Virus record (IMG/VR): IMGVR_UViG_3300044705_000041
Location: 1-48,059 of that record
Source: a virus
DNA: 48,059 nucleotides
Strand: one strand, 5' to 3'
In this document: positions 2,913 to 36,008 of the stretch, piece by piece
How the letters are laid out: each line of letters starts with the position of its first letter
Position numbering within the stretch: position 1 is the stretch's first letter
Notes under the pieces: model-generated
Told to the model about the DNA's origin: nothing
Databases searched by the model: none
What the model saw: the letters and a program-made list of their open reading frames with translations, nothing else
Translations under genes and position numbers: made by a program

Positions 2913-3755
2913 ATGGGCAATTTTTTTTACTCGCACTACATCGACAGGTACAAGTCTGCCACGGCTCACCTGAGCATGGTTCAGGACGGAGCGTATCGGA
3001 GGTTACTTGATTACTACTACGAAACGGGAAAACCAATACCGGAAGATGCCGAGCAAATTATTCGCGTTTGCCGAGCACATTCTGAGGAAGAAATTGAAGC
3101 AGTTTCGTATGTTCTTAAAGGCTTTTTTAGACTCAAGGCTGGTAAGTGGCACAACCGTTTTGCCGATGACGAACTTAGTAAGATGCGTAGGCTTAGTAAG
3201 TTACGCTCCGATTCAGCGAAGCGAAGATGGGATGACAAACGCAATGCAAAAGCAGATGCAAATGCATCAACAAATGCACCTGCTAATGGAATGCTACCTA
3301 ATACCTTATTACCTAATACCACAAAAGAATCAAAACCTAAGGCGCAAAGCGCCTTTCAGTTACCGGATTGGATTCCGCAAAGTAACTGGCAAGACTTCGA
3401 GGAAATGCGACGGAAGGCAAGAAAGCCCATGACCGACCGAGCACGGGCCTTAGTGGTTGCTGAGTTATTCAAGCTTCGCAACTCAGGCCACGATCCGGCG
3501 AAGGTGCTAGACCAATCAACCAGAAACGCATGGCAGGACGTTTACGAACTTCGAGGCGAAAATGGACAGCGAGAACAACGATCACAGCCAAAGCCTAACG
3601 CCGTTGTCGCAAGATACCACAACAATCAGTCTGAGAAACTCAGAGCCTTTGGTGCCGCAGTGGGCGAACATCCTAGAGATGCTGGCGATAGACAAGCGGC
3701 AGGACTGGGCCCCGGGAATCCTCTCGTACTGGAAGGCGAAATTAAAGGGGTATAA
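2913..3755 (+). CDS. DUF1376-type phage replication protein
   Basis: Encodes 280 residues. The first about 95 residues form a recognisable DUF1376 (YdaU-like) domain: FFYSHYIDRYKSATAHLS, then QDGAYRRLLDYYYETGKPIP and a winged-helix-like tail ending at KLRSDSAKRRW. A low-complexity Ala/Asn linker follows, then a conserved-looking WIPQSNWQDFEEMRR block also found in phage replication proteins. The likely role is origin recognition or replisome assembly. Its last 194 bases are shared, in another frame, with the next gene. Confidence 0.75.
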   Translation: MGNFFYSHYIDRYKSATAHLSMVQDGAYRRLLDYYYETGKPIPEDAEQIIRVCRAHSEEEIEAVSYVLKGFFRLKAGKWHNRFADDELSKMRRLSKLRSDSAKRRWDDKRNAKADANASTNAPANGMLPNTLLPNTTKESKPKAQSAFQLPDWIPQSNWQDFEEMRRKARKPMTDRARALVVAELFKLRNSGHDPAKVLDQSTRNAWQDVYELRGENGQREQRSQPKPNAVVARYHNNQSEKLRAFGAAVGEHPRDAGDRQAAGLGPGNPLVLEGEIKGV

Positions 3756-5099: not shown

Positions 5100-6212
5100 A
5101 TGAAATTAGCCGACTATCTAGACGTTGACAAGCTAGCCGAGCACTGCAACTCGCGGGTGGTTAATGTGCAGCACCATCACTACGCTCCGCTAACTATCTA
5201 CAACTATGGCCAGAAGGCGCAGTTCGAAAATATTTGGGATGATGTGACGGTTAAGACGCGCGGGTTGATTATTGACGAATCTACGCAGGAGATAGTCGCG
5301 CGGCCATTTCAGAAGTTTTTCAATTTGGGACACGCCGGACGGCCTGAAACCTGGGCCGAAAATCTCCCTGCCGAGCTTCCAGAGATCACCGAAAAGTTAG
5401 ATGGTTCGCTCGGCGTCCTGTATAGGCTTAATGGGTTTTCTGGCATAGCCACTCGCGGTTCTTTCGCTTCCGATCAGGCTACATGGGCATCGCAGTGGTA
5501 CACGAAGAACCTTAGCCACGCTCACTGGCCCGATGGTTGGACGCCACTTTTTGAGATTGTGTATCCCGACAATCGAATTGTCGTGCGGTACGGATGGGAA
5601 GGTCTGTCTCTACTATCGCTAGTCAACAATGAGACGGGAGAAGAGCTGCCATACTCATCGCTCTTCGAGATTGGAAGCGCTAACGGGTGCCGCGTAGTCC
5701 CACTGCACAGGCTCACACTAGATGAATGCCGCTCCGACACCCAAGACAACTTCGAGGGATATGTGGCGACGTGGCATCGCGCCGGACAGACCCCCCTAAA
5801 ACTAAAAATAAAACTCATCGAATATTGCCGCTTGCATCGCCTCCTGACCTCTATCAGCCCAAAGGAAATTTGGCGGATGTTGAAAGACGGCGAGAGTTTA
5901 GAGGAGCTTTTCAAGGACACGCCTAGCCATTATCAAGAGTGGGTCAGTTATTGGCGCAATGGCCTGCAAGCGGAATACGGTCGCATAGAGCAAAAGGCGC
6001 AGGCGATATGGGCCTCCTGCCGACTCCCAAAAAATGGAGCGGATAAAGATGCACGGAAAAAGCTGGCTGAGTTCTTTACTCTCGGAGATCGCAAAGATGT
6101 AAGCGGGGTGCTGTTCAAAATGCTCGATGAGCAACCATATGCCGAGGTGATCTGGAAGATGTGCCGCGACAAAACCCGCGACCAAGAACCATTTCGCAGG
6201 GAAGTCGAGTGA
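5100..6212 (+). CDS. T4 Rnl1-like RNA ligase
   Basis: Encodes 370 residues, close to T4 RnlA (374). Nucleotidyltransferase motifs are in order: motif I KLDGS with the adenylated Lys99, motif III/IIIa LFEIVYP (about 150-156), motif IV FEGYV (218-222) and motif V KLKIK (234-238). The upstream TRGLIIDE and RPFQKFFNLGH segments are also typical of Rnl1. The C-terminal third is helical. Such enzymes seal broken RNA, classically tRNAs cut by host anticodon nucleases. No polynucleotide kinase partner is seen in the window. A GGGGAG site precedes ATG 5100. Confidence 0.92.
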   Translation: MKLADYLDVDKLAEHCNSRVVNVQHHHYAPLTIYNYGQKAQFENIWDDVTVKTRGLIIDESTQEIVARPFQKFFNLGHAGRPETWAENLPAELPEITEKLDGSLGVLYRLNGFSGIATRGSFASDQATWASQWYTKNLSHAHWPDGWTPLFEIVYPDNRIVVRYGWEGLSLLSLVNNETGEELPYSSLFEIGSANGCRVVPLHRLTLDECRSDTQDNFEGYVATWHRAGQTPLKLKIKLIEYCRLHRLLTSISPKEIWRMLKDGESLEELFKDTPSHYQEWVSYWRNGLQAEYGRIEQKAQAIWASCRLPKNGADKDARKKLAEFFTLGDRKDVSGVLFKMLDEQPYAEVIWKMCRDKTRDQEPFRREVE

Positions 6213-6279: not shown

Positions 6280-6723
6280 ATGAAACTTGAACGGTGGCAT
6301 AAGTGGTTGATCGCGTTAGGCGCTCTAATTCTGGCGCTGGTTACGTTTTATTGCGCCTGTCTCAATCACATCGGAATTAATGAGGTCGGAGTTGCATACA
6401 ACTCCATCGGCGGTCACGTCTGGATTCAGGATAGGCCGGGATGGTATCTCACGTCACCGACCGTCGAGGTCGCGGTGATCCCGACGATACCACTGACAGT
6501 GCAGATACCTTCTGAGGCCAAAGTAATCAACGTAAAGATTGTGCGATTTCGGCCAGAAGGAATTGACGAGTTCATTCGGCTCCAAGGCTTCTCATATTTC
6601 AGCGATCAAGGAATAGAAAACATCCTCATGGGGTATGCCTTCTCAGGTAAGGATTATCCGTTCCTTGAAGTGTTGCAGAGTCCGGGAGCGGAAAGCGTTC
6701 AGTTGCCCGCATTGCACCGATGA
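6280..6723 (+). CDS. SPFH/prohibitin-like membrane protein
   Basis: Encodes 147 residues from ATG 6280, with GAGGAGG upstream. One N-terminal membrane helix (about 9-30, WLIALGALILALVTFYCA) is followed by a segment typical of Band-7/SPFH proteins: GINEVGVAYNSIGG, then RPGWYLTSPTVEVAVIPTIP and alternating strands. The usual long C-terminal coiled-coil is missing, so this is a minimal SPFH head. Phage SPFH-like proteins are known but their job is unclear. The next gene overlaps by ATGA and encodes two more membrane helices, suggesting a membrane complex. Confidence 0.65.
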   Translation: MKLERWHKWLIALGALILALVTFYCACLNHIGINEVGVAYNSIGGHVWIQDRPGWYLTSPTVEVAVIPTIPLTVQIPSEAKVINVKIVRFRPEGIDEFIRLQGFSYFSDQGIENILMGYAFSGKDYPFLEVLQSPGAESVQLPALHR

Positions 6724-6982: not shown

Positions 6983-7153
6983 ATGAAACACAAATTGCAA
7001 ACCAAGACAGTTCAGCGAGTCGATCAATCGCCGATGAATGCTAAGCGCTGGTGCCTAACACTGAGTTGCGGCCATGAGGTCTGGGTGACTGCTAATTCTC
7101 GGCCAAAACGAATGAAGGCTCCGTGCGAACGTTGTCCAGCGGTAACCGACTGA
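6983..7153 (+). CDS. Small zinc-ribbon hypothetical protein
   Basis: Encodes 56 residues from ATG 6983, preceded by GGAGGGGG; the in-frame GTG at 6965 is less likely. WCLTLSCGHEVWV and APCERCPA form a compact CxxxxxCGH...CxxC motif, common in small phage proteins of unknown function with a presumed structural zinc. It follows the intergenic repeat-and-hairpin region 6921-6970. Confidence 0.65.
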   Translation: MKHKLQTKTVQRVDQSPMNAKRWCLTLSCGHEVWVTANSRPKRMKAPCERCPAVTD

Positions 7154-11370: not shown

Positions 11371-12381
11371 ATGCCAGAAGAATTAGCAATCATCACGAAT
11401 CCAGCTACGGCGTATAGCCGTAGGCGTAAGTACTGGATTGAGGCGAATGGCGAGGTTCCGGCTGGTTATCTGGTCGCGGCTACCTGCGGAGATAAGCTTT
11501 GTGTTGATCGCGCCCATCTAGTGCTGCGCGAAAAAATCGTGCAGAACAAGTGGAAATGGTTGCGCGATGCGGTGAAAAATCTCAGTGATGGCGATTACTT
11601 CGATGTGCGGGATTATCCGAGAGATTCCCGAGCGATTGTAAAACTCAAAACGGTGCTGGCTCTGGCCAGCGATACTTGCCGCATTCATTTCACGTACCGG
11701 CAGTTCCCAAGCGGCGGCGTCCGAATCATCCGCTCCGGAGATTTCTACGACCCGGACACAGAGACACCGAGCATGTTCCGCAACGTCACGAATTCTAGAA
11801 GACCAGCGCATTTCTTTCTGGGATTTATGCGGAATTATGGCGAACAATTTCAACGAGTGGCTCACTGCAAGATTAAGGCCTGTCCAATGCCATTGTTCAG
11901 AGGAGTCGGGGAGTATTGTTTTCAGCACAATCATTTCTTTGATTACAAGATGTCAATGACGGATAGTGCGCTAGACGCCCGAGAAATGTATAACCCAGCA
12001 GAACCACATGCACCGTACACATTGGCGCGCGAGTTTTTAATTAGCACGGATAATCTAGAAAAATCCCTGCGTTTTCGCGACCAGCACGGGAACCTAGTAG
12101 CGGCCCACAGGAACGCTGGAACGTCAAATTACTCTCGTTCCCCAACCAGACTACATATGCGGCTGGGCAATGGATCGCATACGAGTAGCAAAACTTCGCG
12201 TGGACGACGACGGAGAGCTTCCCGAGATCATGGGCATCGTGACCTTGGAAAGAAAAAACGCTGGTCGCGAGAAACAATCGAAGCATTAGAGTTAGAAGCC
12301 GATCATATTCTTGGATTGGATTCGCCGGAAGTAATCGCACGAGCAGAACTTATGCGTCGGGAGCAAATGGCATCGGCATAA
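11371..12381 (+). CDS. HNH_3-like protein; frame probably changes in its last third
   Basis: The open frame is 336 codons. The N-terminus carries an HNH_3-like pattern (GEVPAGYLVAATCGDKLCVD then RAHLVL), and a second Cys/His group lies at about 168-190 (CKIKAC ... CFQHNHFF). After about 12060 the frame turns Ser/Arg-rich and non-protein-like. The minus-one frame instead gives a sensible tail (GPQERWNVKLLSFPNQTTYA) ending at 12188, and a second gene starts at ATG 12170 in the third frame. The real first product therefore probably ends at 12188. One missing A in the AAAAA run at 12058-12063 would explain it. Confidence 0.5.
   Translation: MPEELAIITNPATAYSRRRKYWIEANGEVPAGYLVAATCGDKLCVDRAHLVLREKIVQNKWKWLRDAVKNLSDGDYFDVRDYPRDSRAIVKLKTVLALASDTCRIHFTYRQFPSGGVRIIRSGDFYDPDTETPSMFRNVTNSRRPAHFFLGFMRNYGEQFQRVAHCKIKACPMPLFRGVGEYCFQHNHFFDYKMSMTDSALDAREMYNPAEPHAPYTLAREFLISTDNLEKSLRFRDQHGNLVAAHRNAGTSNYSRSPTRLHMRLGNGSHTSSKTSRGRRRRASRDHGHRDLGKKKRWSRETIEALELEADHILGLDSPEVIARAELMRREQMASA
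12170..12381 (+). CDS. Possible frameshifted small protein, joined at an A AAA AAC site
   Basis: ATG 12170 opens a sensible frame (MDRIRVAKLRVDDDGELPEI) that stops at 12289. At 12253-12259 it contains A AAA AAC in the phase required for minus-one slippage. After the shift, reading resumes at CGC 12259 in the frame that ends at 12381 (RWSRETIEALELEADHILG ...), giving about 70 residues of uniform protein-like character. Either programmed frameshifting or one missing A in the run explains this. No clear ribosome site precedes 12170. Confidence 0.4.
12253..12259 (+). promoter_or_regulatory. Candidate minus-one ribosomal slippery heptamer
   Basis: A AAA AAC lies with codon phase AGA-AAA-AAC in the frame of ATG 12170, the canonical X XXY YYZ arrangement. 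Slippage by one base moves into the frame that stays open to 12381. I see no strong stem-loop just downstream, so a homopolymer sequencing error is an equal alternative. Confidence 0.4.
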
Positions 12382-14016: not shown

Positions 14017-14512
14017 ATCTAACCTTGGCGTACAGATGAGCGCAGGCAGACCATCAAGTTATACCCCAGAAATAGCCCGTCGAATCTGCGAAGCCTTGAT
14101 TGAAGGCCGCAGCCTACGCTCTATTTGCCGCGAGGAAGAATGGTGCCCATCTATTACTACTGTTATCAATTGGTTAGCGGCTGACAAAGAATTTCTTGCA
14201 CAATACACGCAAGCACGTGAGCAACAGGCTGAGTTAATGGCCGATGAGCTTATAGATATTGCAGACGATGGCACGAATGATTGGGTCGAGCGCGAGATGC
14301 GGAAAGGCAAAACCGAGATTCTGTGCGATCACGAACACATCAATCGTTCCAGGCTGCGAGTGGACACGCGCAAATGGGTAGCCGCTCGGTTACTTCCCAA
14401 GAAATACGGTGACAAAGTAGCTCTTACCGATCCTGAGGGCAATGCGCCTGTTGTAAAGGTTCTCATTGAAACAATTGGAGCTTCGAGTACGACTCCAGCC
14501 CAAGCAGGTTGA
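14009..14512 (+). CDS. Terminase small subunit (Sf6 gp1-like)
   Basis: Encodes 167 residues from GTG 14009; ATG 14036 is an alternative and gives 158. GRPSSYTPEIARRICEALIE, then SLRSICREEEWCPSITTVINW forms the N-terminal helix-turn-helix DNA-binding part typical of Sf6/P22-like small terminases. The conserved C-terminal box RLRVDTRKWVAARLLPKKYG follows. It recognises phage DNA and feeds the large subunit. The large-subunit gene overlaps its 3' end by 47 bases. Confidence 0.85.
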   Translation: MDESNLGVQMSAGRPSSYTPEIARRICEALIEGRSLRSICREEEWCPSITTVINWLAADKEFLAQYTQAREQQAELMADELIDIADDGTNDWVEREMRKGKTEILCDHEHINRSRLRVDTRKWVAARLLPKKYGDKVALTDPEGNAPVVKVLIETIGASSTTPAQAG

Positions 14513-16031
14513 TTTATGGAACGCCTGGGACGGGCCGACATACACACGCTTAGGCTACGGCGGGGCGCGTGGGGGGGCGAAGTCAGGCGGCGGACGCCGG
14601 GTAATGATACTCAGGCGCTTGAAGTACGCGAAATCCACCGGGCTTATCCTTCGCCGAACCTACAACGAACTGTATAAGTCTCACATCGTCAAGATGTTCG
14701 AAGAGTATCCCGCATTGCGTGATTGGTGGAGAGAGTCGAGTAAAGAGCTGGTATTCCCGAATGGCTCCAGGTTGTTCTTTGGCTCGGCTGATACTGAAGG
14801 CGCAATGAGTAACTTCTACTCGTCTGAGTTTGCCGACATTTGGCCGGACGAAGCGCAGGAGTTCTCCCAAGGCGAACTGGAAAGGCTTTCAGGCTCCAAC
14901 CGCTGTACTTCTAACGGCGAGATCGTGAGCAAGATGGTCTACACGTTCATGCCTGGCTTCTCTGAGTCTGGGCTTCCGCCTAAAGGCTTGAGCTACTTGA
15001 AAAGGGTATTTGTAGACAAAGACTTACGCGGACCCGAGAAGCAAAAGAACTGGCAGTTTATTCAAGCGTTTAGCTGGGACAATATCGAATGGGCACGTAA
15101 GGAGCTTGAACGTGATGGTGTAAGTGAAGAGGATTTCTACTCTTGGACTGAATCAGAGCGTCGAGAGTACTTCTTGACCCGCACGGAATATGGCGCAACT
15201 CTCGCAGCGATCACAGACGATAAACAGCGGGACGCATGGCTATTTGGTAAATGGGACGTATTCCAAGGGCAATACTTTCCACAGTTTGACCACGATAGGC
15301 ACGTAATCACGCTAGAACAAGCCAGGGAACGCATGAAACCGTGGCATAAGCGCTGGCTGTCAGGTGATTGGGGGTATGACCATCCACACGCGGTTTATAA
15401 GCACATCATGGATGAGCATGGGAGAGTCATTACCTATTGGGAGCAATGGGGCCGGGAGATGGCAGAGGACGCGCTAGGACGCCTAATTACCTCAGCCTGT
15501 AACGGGGAAAAGTTCGTCGCATTCCCGTTCTCTTGGGATGCTGGTAAGTTGTCACCACGATCTAAAGTGCCGCGTTCCATGATGCAGTACATGAACGACT
15601 CGCTTGGGCCTGGACTGCCGAAGGCCTTTCCCACCGACGCGCAGCCGGGATCACGGGTCGCAAGAGCGCGTTTGATGGCCCAAATGCTCGATTCCGGTTA
15701 TTGGCAGATTACGGAGAACTGCCAGCACTTAATTGAGTGTCTGCCGTCACTGATCCGTGACCCAAAGAACACGGAAGATGTGCTGAAGGTCGATTACCAA
15801 GAGAATCAAATCGGCGACGATCCTTACGATGGCGCTGGGATGGGCTTACAGTTCATGTGCGGCAACGTAAAGAAGCCGCCTGAGGTAGTAATTCAGGAGC
15901 GGGCGGCCATGATTCCAGATCCTACGCAACGATTCTTCTACACCTACAAGCAGAGAGCGGAACTGGCCAAGTCTCAGCAGCCGCAGAAGCAAATTAACCA
16001 GCCTAGCTGGATGTCGAGGATGCAGGATTGA
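14466..16031 (+). CDS. terL: Terminase large subunit
   Basis: Encodes 521 residues from TTG 14466, with AAAGG 6 bases upstream. Motor domain: a Walker A-like GGARGGAKSGG loop (32-42), then ILRRTY; Walker B FADIWPDEA (122-130) with the catalytic Glu. The C-terminal RNase H-like nuclease carries LSGDWGYDHPHAV (first Asp), AFPFSWDAG (second) and IGDDPYDGAGMG near the end (third). It packages DNA into proheads and cuts the concatemer. Identification is firm. Confidence 0.95.
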   Translation: MKQLELRVRLQPKQVDLWNAWDGPTYTRLGYGGARGGAKSGGGRRVMILRRLKYAKSTGLILRRTYNELYKSHIVKMFEEYPALRDWWRESSKELVFPNGSRLFFGSADTEGAMSNFYSSEFADIWPDEAQEFSQGELERLSGSNRCTSNGEIVSKMVYTFMPGFSESGLPPKGLSYLKRVFVDKDLRGPEKQKNWQFIQAFSWDNIEWARKELERDGVSEEDFYSWTESERREYFLTRTEYGATLAAITDDKQRDAWLFGKWDVFQGQYFPQFDHDRHVITLEQARERMKPWHKRWLSGDWGYDHPHAVYKHIMDEHGRVITYWEQWGREMAEDALGRLITSACNGEKFVAFPFSWDAGKLSPRSKVPRSMMQYMNDSLGPGLPKAFPTDAQPGSRVARARLMAQMLDSGYWQITENCQHLIECLPSLIRDPKNTEDVLKVDYQENQIGDDPYDGAGMGLQFMCGNVKKPPEVVIQERAAMIPDPTQRFFYTYKQRAELAKSQQPQKQINQPSWMSRMQD

Positions 16032-24379: not shown

Positions 24380-25240
24380 ATGCCAGCAGATGCAAGAATT
24401 GACCAAACATCCATAGACGAAGCGGGAGCTTTTAACGCTCGCTCAATGGAAATGACGCGCAACGCTCAATTGAAAGACTACGGGCCGGATTACATTGACC
24501 CATCGCAGATGCGGAAGCCGGAATACTTCGTTTACATCTACAGCGTTGTTGACCCTCGGCCAGCAGGAAAGAAACTCATCCGCGCTCTGCCCCCTCTTGT
24601 TCCAGTGCTCGAAATCGCAGAACTAAAGCCTGGAGAGCAGTACACGCTGGTTACGACAATCGGCCATCCAGTGATGCAGCCGTGCATGAAAGAAAATGGC
24701 GACCGCTATGTTGAGTACCACGATGCCCGCAGGATCGCAATGGACATCGTAAATCCCGACAACTTGAGTTTGAACCAAGACGCGAAAGTTGATCCGGCGC
24801 GGCTCTACTCAGAAGGCAACGATTACGGAAAGCTCGGGGTGTTCTGGAGCCTGCATAATCCTCCGCTGGCAGAGGAAGTAGAGAAAGCCATTGCGCGGAA
24901 AGAGGCGTACTACCGTTCGCGTTTAGATCAAGCCCGCCTGGTTGAATCGAGCGATCCCAAGGCTCTCTACGCCTACATCACGACTACAGATCACATCGCA
25001 GCAGATTACTTCGGCGAACAGCACTCCTGGCATCAGAAGCGAGTCAAGAAAGAAGCCTGCCCGAACTGTGGCGAGGAAATCAATCCCGGCGCAAAGTTCC
25101 ACGTTTCTCAGGCAATGGGCGGAATCATCTGCGTGCTCGATTGGCGAGCCGCCGTTAACGCTGGCGTCAAGAAGTTGCGAGACGTACCTGAGGACAAACG
25201 CTGGGAATCATCTTCGCGGAGCGGAGAAGCGGCTAGTTAA
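24380..25240 (+). CDS. Head-region protein with C-terminal zinc ribbon
   Basis: Encodes 286 residues. Central region carries strands (YFVYIYSVVDPRPAGKK, then VLEIAELKPGEQYTLVTT). The segment ACPNCGEEINPGAKFH ... GIICVLDW at about 226-254 is a clear zinc-ribbon-like CxxC, possibly completed by His and a single Cys. Similar proteins occur in the head modules of related podoviruses. It may be a minor capsid or connector-associated component; function is inferred from place only. Confidence 0.55.
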   Translation: MPADARIDQTSIDEAGAFNARSMEMTRNAQLKDYGPDYIDPSQMRKPEYFVYIYSVVDPRPAGKKLIRALPPLVPVLEIAELKPGEQYTLVTTIGHPVMQPCMKENGDRYVEYHDARRIAMDIVNPDNLSLNQDAKVDPARLYSEGNDYGKLGVFWSLHNPPLAEEVEKAIARKEAYYRSRLDQARLVESSDPKALYAYITTTDHIAADYFGEQHSWHQKRVKKEACPNCGEEINPGAKFHVSQAMGGIICVLDWRAAVNAGVKKLRDVPEDKRWESSSRSGEAAS

Positions 25241-25245
25241 TTCCA

Positions 25246-25255
25246 TCCTGAGTTA
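25246..25255 (-). promoter_or_regulatory. Inverted partial copy of the leader box
   Basis: TCCTGAGTTA is the exact reverse complement of the first ten bases of the leader box. It lies in the short gap before 25296, a gene whose ATG has no evident ribosome site. A small local inversion could explain both facts. Confidence 0.35.
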
Positions 25256-25295
25256 TTGACTGACTGCCGATCCTTCCGCGATGCAATAACTAAAC

Positions 25296-26123
25296 ATGCC
25301 GATAGCCGCACCTGCGACTTACCCGCTGTTGAGCGACATTATGCTCTTGGCTCGGACTCTCGTACTCGATACGAAGGCCGGAGCAACGAATACGCCTGGA
25401 GAGGGGCAGATTCTAACGAATAACGCCCCTTTCACGATTCCGATGATTAACTCATCCATCCGGAAGCTCTATCGGGCGCTAGGTAATAGCGGAGTAGCTA
25501 CGCTGATTCAGGACAACATCATCATAAGTGGACTAACTCCGGTAAATGGGCCTTTGGGCCTAGCTATTCCCGACCCTTCCGTTCAAGTATCAATTACCTA
25601 TGCGGGGTACTTCGATGGGACAAGCACAAACACAAGCCTCAAGTTATCTGCAAACGTATTAAGCGTAGTGCGAATGTGGGAACGGCAGACAGGATCAAAC
25701 AACGACTTTGTGCCTATGTATCCCGCTAAGTTCGGTCTGCCATCCCGAAATCAGACTATGGTGCTGGGGGATTGGGAATACCGCCAAGACGGAATTTATA
25801 TGCTTGGATCGCTGAATACGATGGACGTTCGCTATCGAGCGATTATTCAGCTTCCGGCACAAGTAAGCGGCGACGGAACCGACTTCGCGTCTATCAGCGT
25901 CCCGATTCTCGATTGCACAGATGCAATTGCGTACGACTTAGCTGCGGTTTATCGCGGAGCGAGAGCGCAGGGCGGAGATTTGGAACTGGCGAAGGACTAC
26001 GCCAATACGGCGCAAGTCCAAACCAGAGCGTTGGCCCTGAGGCAGATTCGTTCGCAGCAAGCAATAGATTACCGCTCACCTGCGTATGGGCATGAGTACG
26101 GCGCATACGGAGTTGATTGGTAG
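25296..26123 (+). CDS. Probable head-tail connector / tail accessory protein
   Basis: Encodes 275 residues. The helical N-terminus (LLSDIMLLARTLVLDTKAG) and SIRKLYRALGNSG, a beta-rich middle (VVRMWERQTGSNNDFVPMYP) and a helical C-terminus (DAIAYDLAAVYRGARAQGGD) resemble podoviral gp4-like tail accessory factors that sit below the portal. Strength: position after head genes and before tail genes, and size. No strong ribosome site is seen before ATG 25296. Confidence 0.6.
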   Translation: MPIAAPATYPLLSDIMLLARTLVLDTKAGATNTPGEGQILTNNAPFTIPMINSSIRKLYRALGNSGVATLIQDNIIISGLTPVNGPLGLAIPDPSVQVSITYAGYFDGTSTNTSLKLSANVLSVVRMWERQTGSNNDFVPMYPAKFGLPSRNQTMVLGDWEYRQDGIYMLGSLNTMDVRYRAIIQLPAQVSGDGTDFASISVPILDCTDAIAYDLAAVYRGARAQGGDLELAKDYANTAQVQTRALALRQIRSQQAIDYRSPAYGHEYGAYGVDW

Positions 26124-26126
26124 CAC

Positions 26127-26139
26127 GCCTGAGGAAGGC
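26127..26139 (+). other. Small hairpin between connector genes
   Basis: GCCT-GAGGA-AGGC forms a 4-bp stem just after the stop at 26123. It is too weak for a terminator and lacks a T-run. It may be chance, or an mRNA processing feature. Confidence 0.25.
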
Positions 26140-26170
26140 TTAACCACTAACTAGATTCTGAGGAGGAATC

Positions 26171-26827
26171 ATGGCCGTAGCAACTATTCAAGCAAATATC
26201 AACACGTTTCCTAATGGAAACGACAATACGCAGCGCCGTCAGGTTGTTTACGGAACTTGCTCGATCATTGGAGCATCGCCGAGCTATGTGCAGGGCGGGG
26301 TTCGCGTCAACTTCAACAACCTCGAATTCATCAAGGCACAGACCATGCTGCCGCAGTGGTGCGAATTCGATTCGCTGAATAACACTGGTTGGCAATATGA
26401 GTTTGCTCCGTTGGGCGCTCAGATTACCAATATCGCGCTTACCACGAACGTAGTGACGATCACCTGCAAAAACAATCTTGCGGCTGGTGACATCGTTCTC
26501 TTGAGCGGGATTACGACTGCAACGTTCCTGAATGGGCAGACTTTAACCGTCCTTGCAGGAAGTTTGTCGGCTACTCAGTTCACGGCAAATTTCACACATG
26601 CTAACTACGGTTCGGCTGGAGATACAGGGTATGTTCTGCCGACGCTATACGCCTCTGGGCTGCCGTATCAAGGCAATTTAATGATCTTCGAATCTGCCGC
26701 GACGGTAACGCCGCCTAACCCGCTCGCCGAACTCGCTACCGGAGCCTTGCCGACCTCGATCACTGGCAACTCTACGACAAACGCGGACGTGATCGGGTTC
26801 AAAGCTGAGTTCATTCGCGCACTGTAA
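26171..26827 (+). CDS. Virion protein with Ig-like beta domain
   Basis: Encodes 218 residues from ATG 26171, with GAGGAGG upstream. After an N-terminal part (VATIQANINTFPNGNDN) comes a beta-sandwich-like repeat unit (ITNIALTTNVVTITC, then FLNGQTLTVLAGSLSATQFT and FTHANYG). The same unit is seen in 28111-31518 and 36018-36692. It is probably a structural or adhesion protein of the tail. The next start overlaps its stop. Confidence 0.6.
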   Translation: MAVATIQANINTFPNGNDNTQRRQVVYGTCSIIGASPSYVQGGVRVNFNNLEFIKAQTMLPQWCEFDSLNNTGWQYEFAPLGAQITNIALTTNVVTITCKNNLAAGDIVLLSGITTATFLNGQTLTVLAGSLSATQFTANFTHANYGSAGDTGYVLPTLYASGLPYQGNLMIFESAATVTPPNPLAELATGALPTSITGNSTTNADVIGFKAEFIRAL

Positions 26828-27006
26828 TGCCTGCTGCTGATATTTCACTAACCACGTTTGGCGGACTGTGTACCGAGGTCGCTCCGAGCGATCTTCCTGA
26901 AGGAGCCAGTCCGCTTAATTGGGACGTGGACTATCTCGTCGGCAGCGTAAAGTCGCGGGATGGATTGATACAAGCATTGTTTCTCTGTAGCTCACACTTA
27001 GGATAG
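26827..27006 (+). CDS. N-terminal fragment of a split tail protein
   Basis: Encodes 59 residues from ATG 26827, on the previous stop. DISLTTFGGLCTEVAPSDLP, then GASPLNWDVDYLVGSVKSRDG is the typical beginning of large phage tail proteins (FGGL ... LPEG ... SRDGL). It breaks off in a TCTCTG (26982-26987) that recurs, in the same phase, at 28260-28265. Removing the 1,278 bp between would fuse it in frame to the rest of 28111-31518. It therefore looks like a remnant cut off by an inserted cassette. Confidence 0.7.
   Translation: MPAADISLTTFGGLCTEVAPSDLPEGASPLNWDVDYLVGSVKSRDGLIQALFLCSSHLG
26982..26987. repeat. TCTCTG boundary repeat, left (right copy 28260-28265)
   Basis: TCTCTG stands at the two junctions where the conserved tail gene stops and resumes. 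The copies are 1,278 bp (426 codons) apart and in the same codon phase. It may be a target duplication or the microhomology used in insertion. Confidence 0.55.
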
Positions 27007-27008
27007 AT

Positions 27009-28118
27009 ATGGCAGGAATATTTCAGAATGGTTGGTGGAGTCTTGGATTTGACTTCATCACATCTATTTCGCCGGGTGGTTTAATTACAGCTATCGGTTC
27101 TAGTGGGTCTGGGAGCCTTGAGATCAGTTCGTCATATGCCAGATTTTCTGGCAAAGGCGTTAGATGTGACCCCGCTTCTCCACAGGCAACGTTTATCGGG
27201 CGAACATTAGGCGTCAATCTCCAATCATTCATTATTGGCATAGCGTTCAACACGCAGCAACTCCCGGCTGGCGGCACGATTTACCCGATCATTACTTTTT
27301 GGGATACAGTTGCAAACGTTGTTAATTGCAGCCTTGGATACAATGCCCAAGGTCAGGTGGGTTGGTACAGTGCTGGCGGAATCAACAACGGAAGTCCGGG
27401 CCAAAGCCCAACCACTCAGCTCGGTAATCTTTCAGCTTCGGGAATAATTACCGTAAATTCCTATATCTGTATCGAATGCTTAGTAACCATAGGCGTATCT
27501 GGGCTGCTGCAATGCAATGTAAACGGACAGAACGTATTGACCTATACCGGCAGTACAATTAAAACTAACGCATGGACTAACGAAGTATTTATAGGCTGCT
27601 CAAGTCCGGCTGGAGCCTATCAATATTACGATGATTGGTACATGCTTGACCTCACCGGGGCAGCGCCATTCAACACATTCCTAGGCAAGTGGCGTATTCA
27701 GACCGATGGCCCGAACGCCGATTCTGCCACAGGCGGGTTGAATACTTGGGCCTTTACGACTCCGCAGGGCAGCGACTTCGCCAATTGTGCCAATATCCCG
27801 CTTAATGCCGCGCAATTCAATTCGTCTGCGACGGTCGGCGCACGGATGAGCTTCCGTTTCCCGTCGCTCAATACTTCTCGCGTCTATGGACTTAATACGT
27901 GGATGTCATTGAAGGAAGATTCCGCTGGAAGTAGAGCGGTAGCTCCAATCTTCCGCTCCAATGGCGTAGATCAAACCGGAACGACGATAGTTCTCCCCGG
28001 TTCAGATACTTTCTTTAACCAGAACTCCGTTATTGACCCAAACACAGGGCTTGCGTGGTCAAGTGGGAGCGTAGCAGCCGCTCAGTCGTGTGAAATTGGC
28101 CTTATTGTAAATGCCTAA
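27009..28118 (+). CDS. Lectin-like (LamG/concanavalin-type) virion protein
   Basis: Encodes 369 residues from ATG 27009, only 2 bp after the preceding stop. Beta-rich throughout. Residues about 60-210 show the jelly-roll pattern of LamG/concanavalin-type domains: GIAFNTQQLP, then YIPIITFWDT-like strands, QVGWYSAGG, YICIECLVTIGVSG and VFIGCSSPAGAYQYYDDWYM. This is a common design in phage receptor-binding or decoration proteins. It forms most of the cassette that splits the tail gene. Confidence 0.6.
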   Translation: MAGIFQNGWWSLGFDFITSISPGGLITAIGSSGSGSLEISSSYARFSGKGVRCDPASPQATFIGRTLGVNLQSFIIGIAFNTQQLPAGGTIYPIITFWDTVANVVNCSLGYNAQGQVGWYSAGGINNGSPGQSPTTQLGNLSASGIITVNSYICIECLVTIGVSGLLQCNVNGQNVLTYTGSTIKTNAWTNEVFIGCSSPAGAYQYYDDWYMLDLTGAAPFNTFLGKWRIQTDGPNADSATGGLNTWAFTTPQGSDFANCANIPLNAAQFNSSATVGARMSFRFPSLNTSRVYGLNTWMSLKEDSAGSRAVAPIFRSNGVDQTGTTIVLPGSDTFFNQNSVIDPNTGLAWSSGSVAAAQSCEIGLIVNA

Positions 28119-31100
28119 CGCAGTCGCAGATCAATTAGTCCGTGAGTCACTACAGCAGGACAACGCTAATGCTGTCACGGATCAACTAATCCGCGAGAGC
28201 TTGCAGGCGGACAACGCTAATGCGGTGTGCGATGGCCTATACCGCGAAGCTATCGTAAGTCTCTGCCTGCCGCCTTCGCAGCCTTCGACATTTAACTACG
28301 TCAAGACGTTCGAGCAGGACAATGGCACGGTTAACACGCTGGCCCTGGATGGGGGCGGGACTCTCTGGGAAGAGAGCGTAGGAACTCAGCCACAAGTCTT
28401 AAATCCATTGGCGACCAACATCCTGCCAAATACCTTTGCCGATTCAACTACGCAGAGCAACGAGGAATGGATTTGCTTTAGCGATCTACAGAAAGGTACG
28501 GACATTCCGCGTCACGGCTCTAATCTCGACAGGATTTCTCAGGTTGGGCCGGGAGCTGGGCCAGCAGTAGTAGGCGCAGTTGGCGGAACGAATGTCTATA
28601 ACATCGTTGCCAGTCCAAGCGGACTAACTCAGCCGACAGCAAAATCGAACCCCGCAAACCCGGGCCACTTTGATGACATCAATTGGGCCAACGGGCCTAC
28701 GGGACGTTCTCCAGGAAACGTTCTTACGATCTTCTACACCCAGATTAGCAATGCTCAAGACCCTGATTTACAGGTTGGCAGAGCTGTTTATCTGAATCTC
28801 ACATCTGCGCCGTTCACGGGATTAACCGGCACTTACATCATCACCGCGATTGGGCAGGCGTTTCCGTCTGGCTCTGCTGGAGCGGCAAGGTGGTACTTTT
28901 CGGTTCAGGTCAATACGACAGGTAACACATTGGTGGGTGGCGCGACTCCAACTGGGAGTTATCAAGTCACGCTGGCTACTCTAACTACGACCGCACCAGC
29001 GGCAATCAATGTAAACAACACGGTCACTCTCGCAGGGGTAACAGCACCCGCTTGGGATGGTGCATGGACAATCCTAGCTACGCTCAATAGCGGACAATAT
29101 CAGATCACAGCAACTAGCTTGACGAGCAACGTAGCGACTTATAACTATACCGCGATAGGCGGGAGCCCTGCGATCGCGGCGGGAAATCAGATTACGGTAA
29201 GCGGCTGTACGAACGGCCCAATCGTCAACGGCACGAGCATTTTCAACGTCACGAACTACGATGTCGCTTCGGCCACAGGTACGCAATTTACGCTGTTACT
29301 CAATGGCGCGAACGTCACCAGCGCTGCGGAAAACGCGAATGCTATTAGCAGTGGCACTAAATTCCAGTTTGACCCCGGATTAAGCAACCTCGGTGTCGGG
29401 GTTAATCCGATCTACGGTAACAGCGGCGGCGGCACAGTAACAACGAGCGGCAATTTAGGCTCTGGCACTCGGCAAGCCGTCACGATCTTTGTTACCCGCA
29501 ACGGATACCAGACGGCACCGTCGCCGCCAGTACTATTTGAGACAACCGGAAGCACAAACAATCTGCAAGTCGGACAGATTGCTCTGGGGCCTCCGAATGT
29601 CATTGCGAGGATCGTTGCTTTCACCGGAGCGAACGGGGGAAACTTCTTCTGGATTCCTGAACCTGTAACGATACAAGGTGCTGGCCAACCCGTAACCTAC
29701 AGCGCGACGATCATCACGGACAATGTAACGACTTCTGCGACGTTCCAATTCACAGACGCCGTGCTGTTGGCTGCGACCGCGATAGATATTCAGGGCAACG
29801 ATCTTTTCAATCAGATCGAGTTGGGCGCTTCGACTTGGGATATTGCTTATGCTTCGCGCATGTTCTATGGCGGAGAAAACAACAAGATTCAGAATTTGCT
29901 GAATACAACGTTCGATGGCGGCTACCTGCCAAACCAGAACGGCGTTCAGGCTCCGCTCGGCTGGGCAGTTGATCCTACGAACGGCATAGGCGGGTCGGTA
30001 GTCGCCTCGCCGATCTTTGGGAATTCTTACTATGTACAAAATACGACAGGATCAACGCAGAGTGTCTTGGGCCTCATTACGCAGTCAGCGTTTCAGGATG
30101 TCTACAAAGTACCGATAATCCTGCCGAGCTTTACGTATTCCGTCAGATTGCGGGCAAGCTGCCCTTCTGGGCTGACTACGGGAAGTCTTGTAATTGATCT
30201 GTACTCGCCTTCACTTGCGAGAACGTTTGGAAGCTACACGCTGCCGATTTCTAGCATGACTACTTCGCTGACTTTATTCAGCGGCGAGCTTCTTAGCACA
30301 GCTTTTACGACCTCAGTGCAAAGCGACCTACAGTTGCGGGTGTGGGCTTCCGGCCTAGCGAACAATGCCGATGTCCTTTTAGATCGCTTCGAGGTCTATC
30401 CAGACAATGAGCCTGTCCTGAGGACTGAGTTGCAAGGTTCTTATATCGACAATCTCGAAGCCTTTGATGGAGTCACAGGGCCTTTGGGAGTCGGAGCGCA
30501 GAATAATCAGCCAGCACTGGGTGGATTCATCAACTACGACATCCTCTATATCCTGAAAAGTAACAGCATGGTTTCTACGCAGGACAGTCCAGGAAATGAG
30601 CCTGCCCAGTGGACAGTTCGGGAAGTATCAAACAAAGTCGGCACAGCTGGGATTCATGCTTACGACTATGGTGAGGAATGGGCCGTCACTGCACATCGCA
30701 GCGGATTGTGGATTTACAACGGCTCAGAGCCCGTCAAGATTTCGCAGGAAATCCAGCCAACGTGGGACGCAATCAACTGGACTTACGGTTATACGATTTG
30801 GGTCAGGAATGACACGGTAAACCGCAGGATTCTCGTAGGCGTACCGATGGCTACGCCGAATAAATATCTGCCGAATGCGCCCGTAAACGCTAATCCGACT
30901 ACGCCAAACGTGATTTTGATGCTCAATTACAAAGAGCTGAACACTTCGAGCGAATTAGCGCAGCGCGGGCCGCTAAAGATCGCATACTCAGGCAAGTTGA
31001 TTTCGTGGGACATTTCTCGGAAATGGTCTATCTGGCAAATCCCTGCGACTTACGCGGATTTCATCAAGAGGCCAGATACCAGCGCTCCGCTTTTCTTCTG

Positions 31101-31518
31101 TCAGGCCAATTCCACGATTACGCAACAAGTTGCAGGGTTACTGAACGACAATGGCGCTGCGATTGATGCACTGTACACGACTTACGGATTCGTGAAGTCT
31201 GAACAGGAGCCGCAATTCGGCCCACTGCTCGGCGACCATAGAAAACTGGCAACTTACATGGTGATGAACGCGCAAGGGACTGGCAATATGACCGTGCGGG
31301 TGATTCCCAATCAGTTAGCGTCCACATCCCAATGGACAGTTCCGGGCGGAGTGCCGCTAGTAACCCCAGAGAACAACAACCTGGAGAATCCGCTTGAAAT
31401 CTCAGGGGACCGTCTCTATGTGCAGTTTGAGACTAGCGCATCTACGGCGAGCTTCCAGATTTCGGAACTAAAGATGACCTTACAGAAGGAACCGAACGCT
31501 CCGGTCACAGGACTGTAG
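28111..31518 (+). CDS. Large tail protein, C-terminal part of the split gene
   Basis: Encodes 1135 residues from ATG 28111, overlapping the upstream stop. Residues 1-50 carry a repeated NAVTDQLIRESLQ unit (2.7 copies) that probably belongs to the inserted cassette. From about residue 51 (LCLPPSQPSTFNYVKTF) the old tail protein resumes, and it fits after residue 54 of the fragment at 26827. Two or more Ig-like beta units lie at about 285-415. The C-terminal half has propeller-like strands (ILYILKSNSMVST, then GLWIYNGSEPVKIS), like podoviral tail hub or nozzle proteins. Confidence 0.7.
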   Translation: MPNAVADQLVRESLQQDNANAVTDQLIRESLQADNANAVCDGLYREAIVSLCLPPSQPSTFNYVKTFEQDNGTVNTLALDGGGTLWEESVGTQPQVLNPLATNILPNTFADSTTQSNEEWICFSDLQKGTDIPRHGSNLDRISQVGPGAGPAVVGAVGGTNVYNIVASPSGLTQPTAKSNPANPGHFDDINWANGPTGRSPGNVLTIFYTQISNAQDPDLQVGRAVYLNLTSAPFTGLTGTYIITAIGQAFPSGSAGAARWYFSVQVNTTGNTLVGGATPTGSYQVTLATLTTTAPAAINVNNTVTLAGVTAPAWDGAWTILATLNSGQYQITATSLTSNVATYNYTAIGGSPAIAAGNQITVSGCTNGPIVNGTSIFNVTNYDVASATGTQFTLLLNGANVTSAAENANAISSGTKFQFDPGLSNLGVGVNPIYGNSGGGTVTTSGNLGSGTRQAVTIFVTRNGYQTAPSPPVLFETTGSTNNLQVGQIALGPPNVIARIVAFTGANGGNFFWIPEPVTIQGAGQPVTYSATIITDNVTTSATFQFTDAVLLAATAIDIQGNDLFNQIELGASTWDIAYASRMFYGGENNKIQNLLNTTFDGGYLPNQNGVQAPLGWAVDPTNGIGGSVVASPIFGNSYYVQNTTGSTQSVLGLITQSAFQDVYKVPIILPSFTYSVRLRASCPSGLTTGSLVIDLYSPSLARTFGSYTLPISSMTTSLTLFSGELLSTAFTTSVQSDLQLRVWASGLANNADVLLDRFEVYPDNEPVLRTELQGSYIDNLEAFDGVTGPLGVGAQNNQPALGGFINYDILYILKSNSMVSTQDSPGNEPAQWTVREVSNKVGTAGIHAYDYGEEWAVTAHRSGLWIYNGSEPVKISQEIQPTWDAINWTYGYTIWVRNDTVNRRILVGVPMATPNKYLPNAPVNANPTTPNVILMLNYKELNTSSELAQRGPLKIAYSGKLISWDISRKWSIWQIPATYADFIKRPDTSAPLFFCQANSTITQQVAGLLNDNGAAIDALYTTYGFVKSEQEPQFGPLLGDHRKLATYMVMNAQGTGNMTVRVIPNQLASTSQWTVPGGVPLVTPENNNLENPLEISGDRLYVQFETSASTASFQISELKMTLQKEPNAPVTGL
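28260..28265. repeat. TCTCTG boundary repeat, right copy
   Basis: Second copy of the 6-bp sequence flanking the cassette, with CTC-TGC here and CTC-TGT on the left. Fusion at this point restores an unbroken tail gene. Confidence 0.55.
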
Positions 31519-32100
31519 ATGGCGAAGCTCAATCTAGGCTCGGCAGTTCAGGAGTTGAAAGACCCGGTACTGAGAAGTGCTGTGCTCTCGATTCAGGATG
31601 CAATCAATAATCTTGGGACACATCTTGCCGCCGATCCTGTGGGGGAAACTTCAACCCCACCGCCATTACAAGCTGTGAACGTCAAGACTGCGGGCGAGAT
31701 GGTTCATGTGACTTTCACTCATAACGTGCCGATCAATAAAAACATTCATTATTTTCTGGAATACGACAACGATCCAAGTTTTCCGAATCCTCACGTGACG
31801 CACAACGGTACAAGCCGCAGCATTCCGCCATTTACTTTGCCGACGAAGAATGATAGCTCCGTTACGCAGAACTGGTACTTTCGCGGCTACCCACAGATGC
31901 CAGGAAGTGCCCCGGCCCTGCCTGTCAACTTCGGCGGTGAGGTGCCAACCCCAGTAACCCTTAGCGGAACAACGGCCTTGACATTGCAGCCCTCGACAGG
32001 CTCAGGGACGGCAGCGCCGGATGGTTCGCAGGGCGGTTATGGGTTTGGAAGGATTCAGGCTCGGCCAGTGCTCGGGCCGAAAAGGAACATCGCAATATGA
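31519..32100 (+). CDS. Fibronectin/Ig-like tail accessory protein
   Basis: Encodes 193 residues, starting directly after the large tail gene. A helical N-terminus (LGSAVQELKDPVLRSAVLSI) precedes a domain with fibronectin-like strands (GEMVHVTFTHNVPINKNIHY, then YFLEYDNDPSF, WYFRGYPQMPG). A Gly/Thr-rich tail follows. Probably a tail component. Co-directional and coupled by ATGA to the next gene. Confidence 0.6.
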   Translation: MAKLNLGSAVQELKDPVLRSAVLSIQDAINNLGTHLAADPVGETSTPPPLQAVNVKTAGEMVHVTFTHNVPINKNIHYFLEYDNDPSFPNPHVTHNGTSRSIPPFTLPTKNDSSVTQNWYFRGYPQMPGSAPALPVNFGGEVPTPVTLSGTTALTLQPSTGSGTAAPDGSQGGYGFGRIQARPVLGPKRNIAI

Positions 32101-34416: not shown

Positions 34417-34593
34417 TTCGTCGTGCGTAAAAATCGCTCGGCATATTCCGCCGATTGCGACTACCGCAAACCAAGCAGCGAATAGACCTAAGCCGATCTC
34501 GAATCCGAAAAGCATAACGGCACACATTATCCAGATTTCCGCAAACCTCTCCAAGTAGCAGATAAGCCAAGAGAATAAATAGCGAAATGGCAA
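34396..34593 (-). CDS. Antisense membrane protein among virion genes
   Basis: Encodes 65 residues from TTG 34593, with a GGAAAG site upstream; ATG 34527 is a shorter alternative (43 residues). It has two hydrophobic segments (about 6-12 and 22-50, with VMLFGFEIGLGLFAAWFAVV) and a polar C-terminus. It fills the only plus-strand gap in the ejection module and overlaps both neighbours at its ends. It may be a membrane protein expressed separately, for example for superinfection control, or merely an open stretch. Confidence 0.4.
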   Translation of the reverse strand: MPFRYLFSWLICYLERFAEIWIMCAVMLFGFEIGLGLFAAWFAVVAIGGICRAIFTHDESSAENS

Positions 34594-36008
34594 CTCAGCC
34601 GCTTTCCATAGATCAATTCGCAGAAGCTATCAAGTCCAAATATCCAGGCACTTATGACCATTTGGACAATCAGGAACTGTCGAATCGCATTCTCGCAAAA
34701 TACCCGCAATACAGAACGCAGGTTGACTTGCGCTCTATCCCGCAGGGGCCAGAAAAGCCTGGATTCTGGAAGTCGATAGGGCAAGACATCAAGGGAATGG
34801 TGCCTTCATTGCAGTCTGATGCAGTCAGTAGTAACGCTAATCTCCCGCCTCCTCGATTGGCAGGCGCTCTCCAGTCGATAAAGGATAAGCAGGAAGCATC
34901 CGCAGAGGATACATACCGCAAGCAGGCTGGATATTCTCCGATTTACAGATCAATTGCTCCTATAGCAGAAGGGATCGGCGTCAACGTCCCTGGCATGGAG
35001 AAGTCAGCCAGCGAAGGCGATGCGGCAGGCGTGATAGGTCATGCCGCAACTGTCCCAGCGATCATGGCCGCAACCGAAGGGTTGCGAACTCCAATGGCGG
35101 CGAAAATAGGCCGCAGCGGAATCGAGCTTGGTAAAGGCATCGGCAATATCGCTGATGTAGCAACGTTTGACCGAATCGGTAAGGCCGCAAAGGCAGTTAC
35201 ATCGACAGGCAAGAATCTTGGGAAGATATGGGCATCAGAGCCAAAGCCTCCAATAGCGCAAGAGCCAACATTCCTAGAACGAGCCATTTCAGATAGTGCG
35301 GCGAACGCCGCAAATGAACCGTTCCCAGATCGCGTAGGAGCACATCTCGAAAACGCGATGAAGCCGAATATCGCTGGAGATGCTTCGCTCGATTTCCCAA
35401 GGTATCCAGGTGCGCCATTACCTGCAAAGCCTGCTCCTGAACTACTGCAATCCAGAGCCATTGCTGAAGGCGGAAAACCAACGCCAGAACCACAGAGCGC
35501 CGGACTTGGGAAACTTCCAGTTCATGCGGAAGAGGCTAGCCCAGCAATAGCGAAAGCGCCAGAGCCGAAAGAGATTGAACGGCAGTTAAACGATGCCTTA
35601 GGCGGAAAGCCGCTTATCGCTAATGTTCCGCTAAAGCAACAAGGGAGCCGGATAACTAGCGCAGCACCTAATCCAGCGGAAGGAATGCGGCCCGTAGATT
35701 CAACGGCCATTAAGTCTTACAGGTACGACCCTGCTCGGCGCGAATTTGAAGTAGTAACTCAGAACGGATCGCACGTTATCCACGGCGATGTAAGCCCAGA
35801 GCAAGCCAAAGCATTTGAGAATGCTTCGTCGAAAGGTAAGGCGTGGTCGGAACTTAAGAAAAACAGCACTTATGTCGGGAAGGTAGTTAACGGCCAACGT
35901 GTCTATGCTCAGCCGCCGAAAAGTATCCGTTCCGCCGACCCGAACGACCTTACAGAGATTCTCCAGAAGTCAGTAGAGCAAGCCAAAAAGAAACCAACGA
36001 TTCAGTAA
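34587..36008 (+). CDS. Ejection-type virion protein with C-terminal KTSC domain
   Basis: Encodes 473 residues. Residues 1-45 (LSIDQFAEAIKSKYPGTYDH, then LSNRILAKYPQY) are typical of large phage virion proteins. A hydrophobic helical segment (about 145-175) and a Pro/Ala-rich linker follow. Residues about 370-425 (VDSTAIKSYRYDPARREFEV, then VIHGDVSPEQAKAFENASSK) match the KTSC domain, often fused to phage enzymes and virion proteins. It probably enters the cell with DNA. Confidence 0.65.
   Translation: MATQPLSIDQFAEAIKSKYPGTYDHLDNQELSNRILAKYPQYRTQVDLRSIPQGPEKPGFWKSIGQDIKGMVPSLQSDAVSSNANLPPPRLAGALQSIKDKQEASAEDTYRKQAGYSPIYRSIAPIAEGIGVNVPGMEKSASEGDAAGVIGHAATVPAIMAATEGLRTPMAAKIGRSGIELGKGIGNIADVATFDRIGKAAKAVTSTGKNLGKIWASEPKPPIAQEPTFLERAISDSAANAANEPFPDRVGAHLENAMKPNIAGDASLDFPRYPGAPLPAKPAPELLQSRAIAEGGKPTPEPQSAGLGKLPVHAEEASPAIAKAPEPKEIERQLNDALGGKPLIANVPLKQQGSRITSAAPNPAEGMRPVDSTAIKSYRYDPARREFEVVTQNGSHVIHGDVSPEQAKAFENASSKGKAWSELKKNSTYVGKVVNGQRVYAQPPKSIRSADPNDLTEILQKSVEQAKKKPTIQ

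Follow-up and report, generated by a model that had tools for sequence, protein, structure and literature searches.

A 48,059-bp virus record (IMG/VR record IMGVR_UViG_3300044705_000041, positions 1 to 48,059, referred to below as the window) appears to encode its tail nozzle protein in two pieces, with an unrelated gene between them. In short-tailed phages, the nozzle seals the DNA channel and ranks among the most conserved tail parts. Comparison with relatives shows that a short open reading frame (ORF), the N fragment, and a long ORF, the C part, belong to a single podophage nozzle protein. We consider it likely that the two assemble in trans into a split nozzle, and that a receptor-binding-type gene, open to exchange, is nested where the platform joins the propeller. 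All three ORFs have the coordinates reported in an earlier reading of the DNA that used no database searches (the sequence-only reading). Related loci carry L numbers, and lengths in amino acids are abbreviated aa. The features of the split gene are as follows:

26827..27006, + strand: N fragment, 59 aa, the predicted N-terminal platform segment of the nozzle as its own ORF; intact nozzle ORFs begin with its motif, GGLCTEVAPSDLPEGASPLNWDVDYLVGSVKSRDGL.
26977..27006, + strand: end of the N fragment, a strand matching residues 51-57 of the model of the intact relative L020 (DSSP assignment), then the stop; the split site.
27009..28118, + strand: nested middle gene, 369 aa, a probable tail-tip or receptor-binding protein, with a homologue at the same place in L002.
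28111..28265, + strand: new start of the C part, an ATG and 2.7 units of a 17-aa repeat, read from the sequence.
28111..31518, + strand: C part, 1135 aa, the predicted beta-propeller and remainder of the nozzle protein, assigned from related loci and the fold of intact L020.

The genes are tightly packed. The ATG of the N fragment overlaps the stop of the preceding gene (TAATG), the middle gene begins 2 bases past the N-fragment stop, its ATG preceded by AGGA, which resembles a ribosome-binding site, and the C-part ATG overlaps the middle-gene stop (ATGCCTAA). The repeat units seen earlier at the start of the C part are real and have a period of 17 aa (NAVADQLVRESLQQDNA / NAVTDQLIRESLQADNA / NAVCDGLYREAIV); a tandem-repeat finder reported no DNA array at this place.

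Relatives of the C part were found at 41 loci on viral contigs and at 23 on contigs of genome assemblies, the latter all titled Acidobacteriota (Acidobacteria, Terriglobia, Acidiferrales). Most relatives have a single ORF that opens with the N-fragment motif (GGL.TE..PSDLPEGASP...D.DY..G.V.TR.GL) and runs on into the C part, with homology to the window beginning at about N62 of the C part. The sequence-only reading had taken the 59-residue frame for the start of a tail protein that continues near residue 51 of the C part, and had proposed that one gene was interrupted here; the relatives bear this out, as the gene is uninterrupted in most of them and an unrelated gene stands between the halves in the window. 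Searched alone, the N fragment, the middle gene, and the C part had no Pfam or PHROG match, and neither the C part nor the intact L020 protein matched any of 50,697 phage records. Members of the wider alignment do match PHROGs annotated as virion structural proteins, including phrog_3287 in 23 members. A weak match of the nozzle profile to an animal-virus fibre protein (E 0.018) was disregarded.

The fold was taken from L020, an intact relative of 1158 aa with no insert and 44% identity to the window C part, and not from the window chains. Its AlphaFold model, built on 48 sequences, has a predicted local distance difference test (pLDDT) score of 87.3. The model was also searched with Foldseek, and its top structural matches are nozzle proteins of short-tailed phages. 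VIA Z values for nozzle chains range from 15 to 27 overall and include Pa223 (9nwi, 27.0), SU10 (7z4b, 26.4), VP1 (24.3), T7 gp12 (7boy, 22.1), the crAss001 muzzle (20.6), and P22 gp10 (8eap, 18.3). L020 is thus predicted to have the platform plus seven-bladed propeller fold of a nozzle. A nozzle is expected to be a single polypeptide; in the window, L002, and L031 it is encoded by two ORFs, making these a split variant. In L020 (6848-10324), model residues 597-784 form a domain matching carbohydrate-binding modules of family 16 (2zew, Z 13.7), so the nozzle may itself bind glycans.

Strands assigned by DSSP in the L020 model lie at residues 35-37, 39-42, 45-48, 51-57, and 68-75. Both the split and the in-frame inserts of other relatives fall between strands 51-57 and 68-75, and the window C part picks up again at the strand matching residues 68-75. 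Structural alignments of L020 begin at model residue 7-9 against chain residue 2-3, and the strands at 9-48 are compatible with a platform segment of about 45 residues. In T7 gp12, a 45-residue N-terminus provides three strands of the platform barrel (PMC6702177). In SU10, the chain leaves the N-terminal platform part for propeller blade 1, and a loop on that blade's edge is the docking site of the short tail fibre (PMC9509320). Given the strand positions and the T7 gp12 and SU10 papers, the cut most likely falls at the platform-to-propeller joint.

Three states of this joint (at about residue 55) were counted among the rows of the tree. There is no insert in 35 rows, many of them on Acidobacteriota contigs; 19 rows have an in-frame insert of ~150-1270 aa within one ORF; and three rows, the window, L002 (identical to L011), and L031, are split. 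The split rows form one clade (support 100/100) whose sister is the pair of in-frame-insert loci L012 and L053 (100/98); a quick tree was also made. An in-frame-insert ancestor of the split forms is plausible; it is not established, as the no-insert rows L030 and L042 lie beside this group (91/88). Searches with the split-clade C part, middle gene, and N motif recovered no further members of the clade. Pairwise C-part identities among the split phages are 66%, 66%, and 63%, with the window and L002 at ~66%. Other interrupted nozzle genes were rejected as split cases: in L106 and L107 a stop lies in frame within the insert, which is a different place, and L025/L111 is a lone frame break in a single contig. 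L106 and L107 (6992-8035 and 8039-12313) represent a larger phage (79.7- and 101-kb contigs, identical across 14,129 bp) in which the nozzle insert holds a long poly-glycine run and a segment that looks Hint/intein-like by eye (GGGGCFSAAVSVRTPEG ... HN), followed by a TAG stop and another ATG. The Hint/intein-like segment was not confirmed by Pfam, and PDB matches hit glycine linkers only. L041 (and L008) has a single nozzle ORF (L041 3305-10429, 2374 aa) with a ~1200-aa insert at the joint, in which no Pfam domain was found.

The gene lying in the split is not the same in all three phages. The window and L002 have homologous middle genes at the same place (51-52% identity), and the 185-aa middle gene of L031 is unrelated to that of the window (best BLASTP E 0.84). 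The L031 protein ends in a Gp53-like_C tail-fibre tip domain (PF21882, E 5e-7, 30.6 bits vs a cut-off of 24.9), which was not found in the window or L002 middle genes. The interior of the window had been described as LamG-like; we found no Pfam family for its middle gene at E<=1 and no PDB match by sequence. It belongs instead to a phage family found beside tape-measure, hub, or minor-tail genes. Distant homologues (~25% identity over most of the length) occur in Tetraselmis virus S20, Brevundimonas phage Delta, and Sphingomonas phage Kimi, all adjoining such genes (the S20 neighbour carries a Pfam hub domain), and one more at ~25% identity occurs in a huge phage. In S20 and Kimi, the gene after the middle-type gene encodes short strand-like repeats comparable to the 17-aa units of the window. 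Because its homologues stand among tail genes and have neighbours with strand-like repeats, the window middle protein is likely a tail-tip or receptor-binding protein. The N fragment of L031 has an extra tail of LLLES repeats (6344-6424, ALLLESGPALQNFFELESGTGILLLES), so short strand-like repeats are possible on both sides of the split.

The split phages also differ from their relatives upstream. Every insert-type relative for which upstream sequence is available has a fibre-like gene (family A8, labelled fibre-like by position and its repeat-rich build, with no Pfam match) 5' of the nozzle, as does L020. Neither the split loci nor the whole contigs of the window, L002, and L031 (48.1, 47.5, and 43.1 kb, possibly incomplete) contain it. 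As L012 and L053 both carry the gene and the split contigs do not, the split clade lost the usual fibre-like gene and acquired a different gene at the joint within the nozzle.

Conservation of the N fragment suggests that it is a working chain. Pairwise amino acid identities among the three N fragments are 66%, 64%, and 54%, with synonymous divergence (dS) saturated or high (1.8); the window N fragment is 64-66% identical to those of L031 and L002 at saturated synonymous sites. A conserved core is 80% identical to L002 and 71% to L031 by tblastn, and a start and a stop are kept around the same N segment in all three phages. Since it is conserved about as much as the C part despite saturated dS, the N fragment probably works as a separate chain. 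On the alternative that the N fragment is a dead leftover, the newly started C part would by itself be the complete working nozzle; the C part does have its own start, and the repeats in the window and L002 could stand in for the lost strands. The conservation just described argues against this, as does the C part of L031, which starts MSSNFNYVKSF and adds nothing for the lost strands, and we regard a remnant as unlikely.

The sequence-only reading had explained the layout by a recent, domain-sized mobile lectin cassette that entered the nozzle gene and left a 6-bp target duplication. The structure that it described is real and unusual, but the mechanism of origin that it gave is wrong. TCTCTG does stand at both junctions (26982-26987 and 28260-28265) and keeps one codon phase, the window's first and third ORFs share a frame, and uninterrupted relatives exist. 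TCTCTG is the only 6-mer common to both joints; a shared 6-mer arises between the junction flanks in 33% of shuffles, and the longest match in the closest relative, L002, is 5 bp. A 10-bp direct match flanks the L031 middle gene near its edges (6381-6390 and 6998-7007, TCTTCGAACT) and is reached in 0.55% of simple shuffles (three loci were tested); as a recombination footprint or a chance match it is only suggestive. No direct repeat above chance is thus common to the carriers, as a target-site duplication would be. The layout recurs in L002 with a homologous middle gene at ~66% C-part identity, which makes it old. The GC (guanine plus cytosine) content of the middle genes is near that of their own genomes (window 0.49 vs 0.52; L031 0.65 vs 0.63), nothing but the middle gene and the repeats lies between the junctions, with no recombinase gene there, and the same site holds in-frame inserts across a wide group of relatives. 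A recent cassette is accordingly very unlikely. The earlier reading had counted a three-gene layout in all close relatives, with no uninterrupted homologue, against itself; the first half holds for the two closest relatives and the second does not, as many uninterrupted homologues exist.

Frame relations at the joints bear on whether the three ORFs are read as one protein. Recoding by frameshift or stop readthrough would fuse them into one large protein like the long single ORF of the in-frame relatives, and in L031 all three ORFs are in one frame with single stops between them (N fragment starting at 6161, C part at 6995). In L002, all three differ in frame (N fragment at 2338, C part at 3609). 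Removing the interior therefore restores one frame in the window and L031, as had been claimed for the window, but not in L002, and is no general property. Because the frame relations differ among the three phages, programmed frameshifting was rejected and recoding is disfavoured as a shared mechanism. An ATG also lies right at each joint, and AGGA/AGGAG precedes the middle gene in the window and L002. We judge recoding highly improbable. Both halves are translatable as the sequence-only reading held, with the cassette side supplying the C-part start, which includes the repeats in the window and L002 and is a bare ATG in L031, where the repeat is absent. The viral contigs are metagenome-derived, and L025/L111 demonstrates that isolated frame breaks occur; yet three contigs from different samples share the split layout at 63-66% identity, with two unrelated middle genes, and a sequencing or assembly artefact is exceedingly unlikely.

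For the split nozzle that we favour, the following course of events is proposed. Nozzle proteins build platform strands from their first ~45 residues, in the domain that meets the adaptor, and the chain then crosses into blade 1; among the viruses studied here, inserts are tolerated at that crossing. The common ancestor of the three split phages would have received an unrelated fibre- or lectin-like gene at the crossing, complete with a start and a stop, and would have lost the fibre-like gene kept upstream by other relatives. The 59-aa piece would still be made, packing in trans into the platform of the C part, and the three ORFs would probably be translated in turn from one message by stop/start coupling. 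A scan of 25200-31700 for sigma-70-like promoters gave 0 matches where shuffles predict 5.2, consistent with a single long message for the tail genes. Several points weigh against the split nozzle. Only three split phages are known, all in one clade, so they represent one historical event and not three. Production of the N fragment and its joining to the C part are predicted from the genes. The predicted fold is that of L020 and not of the window protein. The window middle protein has no solved or Pfam relative, its AlphaFold model, made from two sequences, has a pLDDT of 28.7, and its putative receptor-binding role rests on position and on L031. More tentatively, at somewhat less than even chance, the joint could be an exchange site at which whole receptor-binding genes, and not domains alone, are swapped in either direction, with the nozzle an obligate two-chain protein whose 59-residue platform piece acts in trans.

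T7 gp12, SU10 gp17, P22 gp10, and the crAss001 muzzle gp44 resemble L020 in fold, with a propeller, inserted domains, and probably the N-terminal platform strands. Each of these is one chain, whereas the window nozzle is probably cut between platform and propeller with a gene in the cut, and the insertions described in them are elsewhere (between blades 2 and 3 in SU10; between blades 2 and 3 and in blade 3 in crAss001). The in-frame nozzles of L012, L053, L013, L017, L041, and others have the same site, flanking motifs, and a large variable insert as in the split phages, but consist of one ORF of 1304-2374 aa and have a separate upstream fibre-like gene. Members of the tail-tip family in S20, Delta, and Kimi have whole tail genes on either side, whereas the window gene lies inside one. 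Domain shuffling in phage receptor-binding and tail proteins (PMC10684548) likewise exchanges host contacts at a fixed structural site, although here a whole gene is exchanged and the scaffold is left as two chains. No published split nozzle was found in the literature searched, which left out most subscription papers.

Two further genes precede the nozzle in the window:

25296..26123, + strand: probable adaptor gene, 275 aa, named by position only; where enough sequence is available, nearly all loci have a homologue 5' of the nozzle.
26171..26827, + strand: conserved tail gene "dec", 218 aa; most insert-type relatives, and all three split phages, have a homologue 5' of the nozzle.

A PHROG search gave no match for the adaptor candidate or for the likely portal and capsid genes of the window. 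Pfam identified a T4-type RNA ligase (5100-6212), an HNH endonuclease (11371-12381), a terminase large subunit (14466-16031), and a KTSC-domain protein (34587-36008) elsewhere in the window.

A natural two-chain nozzle would mark where this protein can be cut and still assemble. If the split nozzle is as proposed, a separate gene placed at the fibre-side joint would be a second route by which these phages change their host-contact parts; if the joint is also an exchange site for whole genes, a fibre gene could be replaced with the reading frame of each nozzle half left untouched. Nozzles that are intact, carry an insert, or are split occur side by side in one virus group, with many Acidobacteriota contigs bearing the no-insert form, and together they provide a natural experiment.

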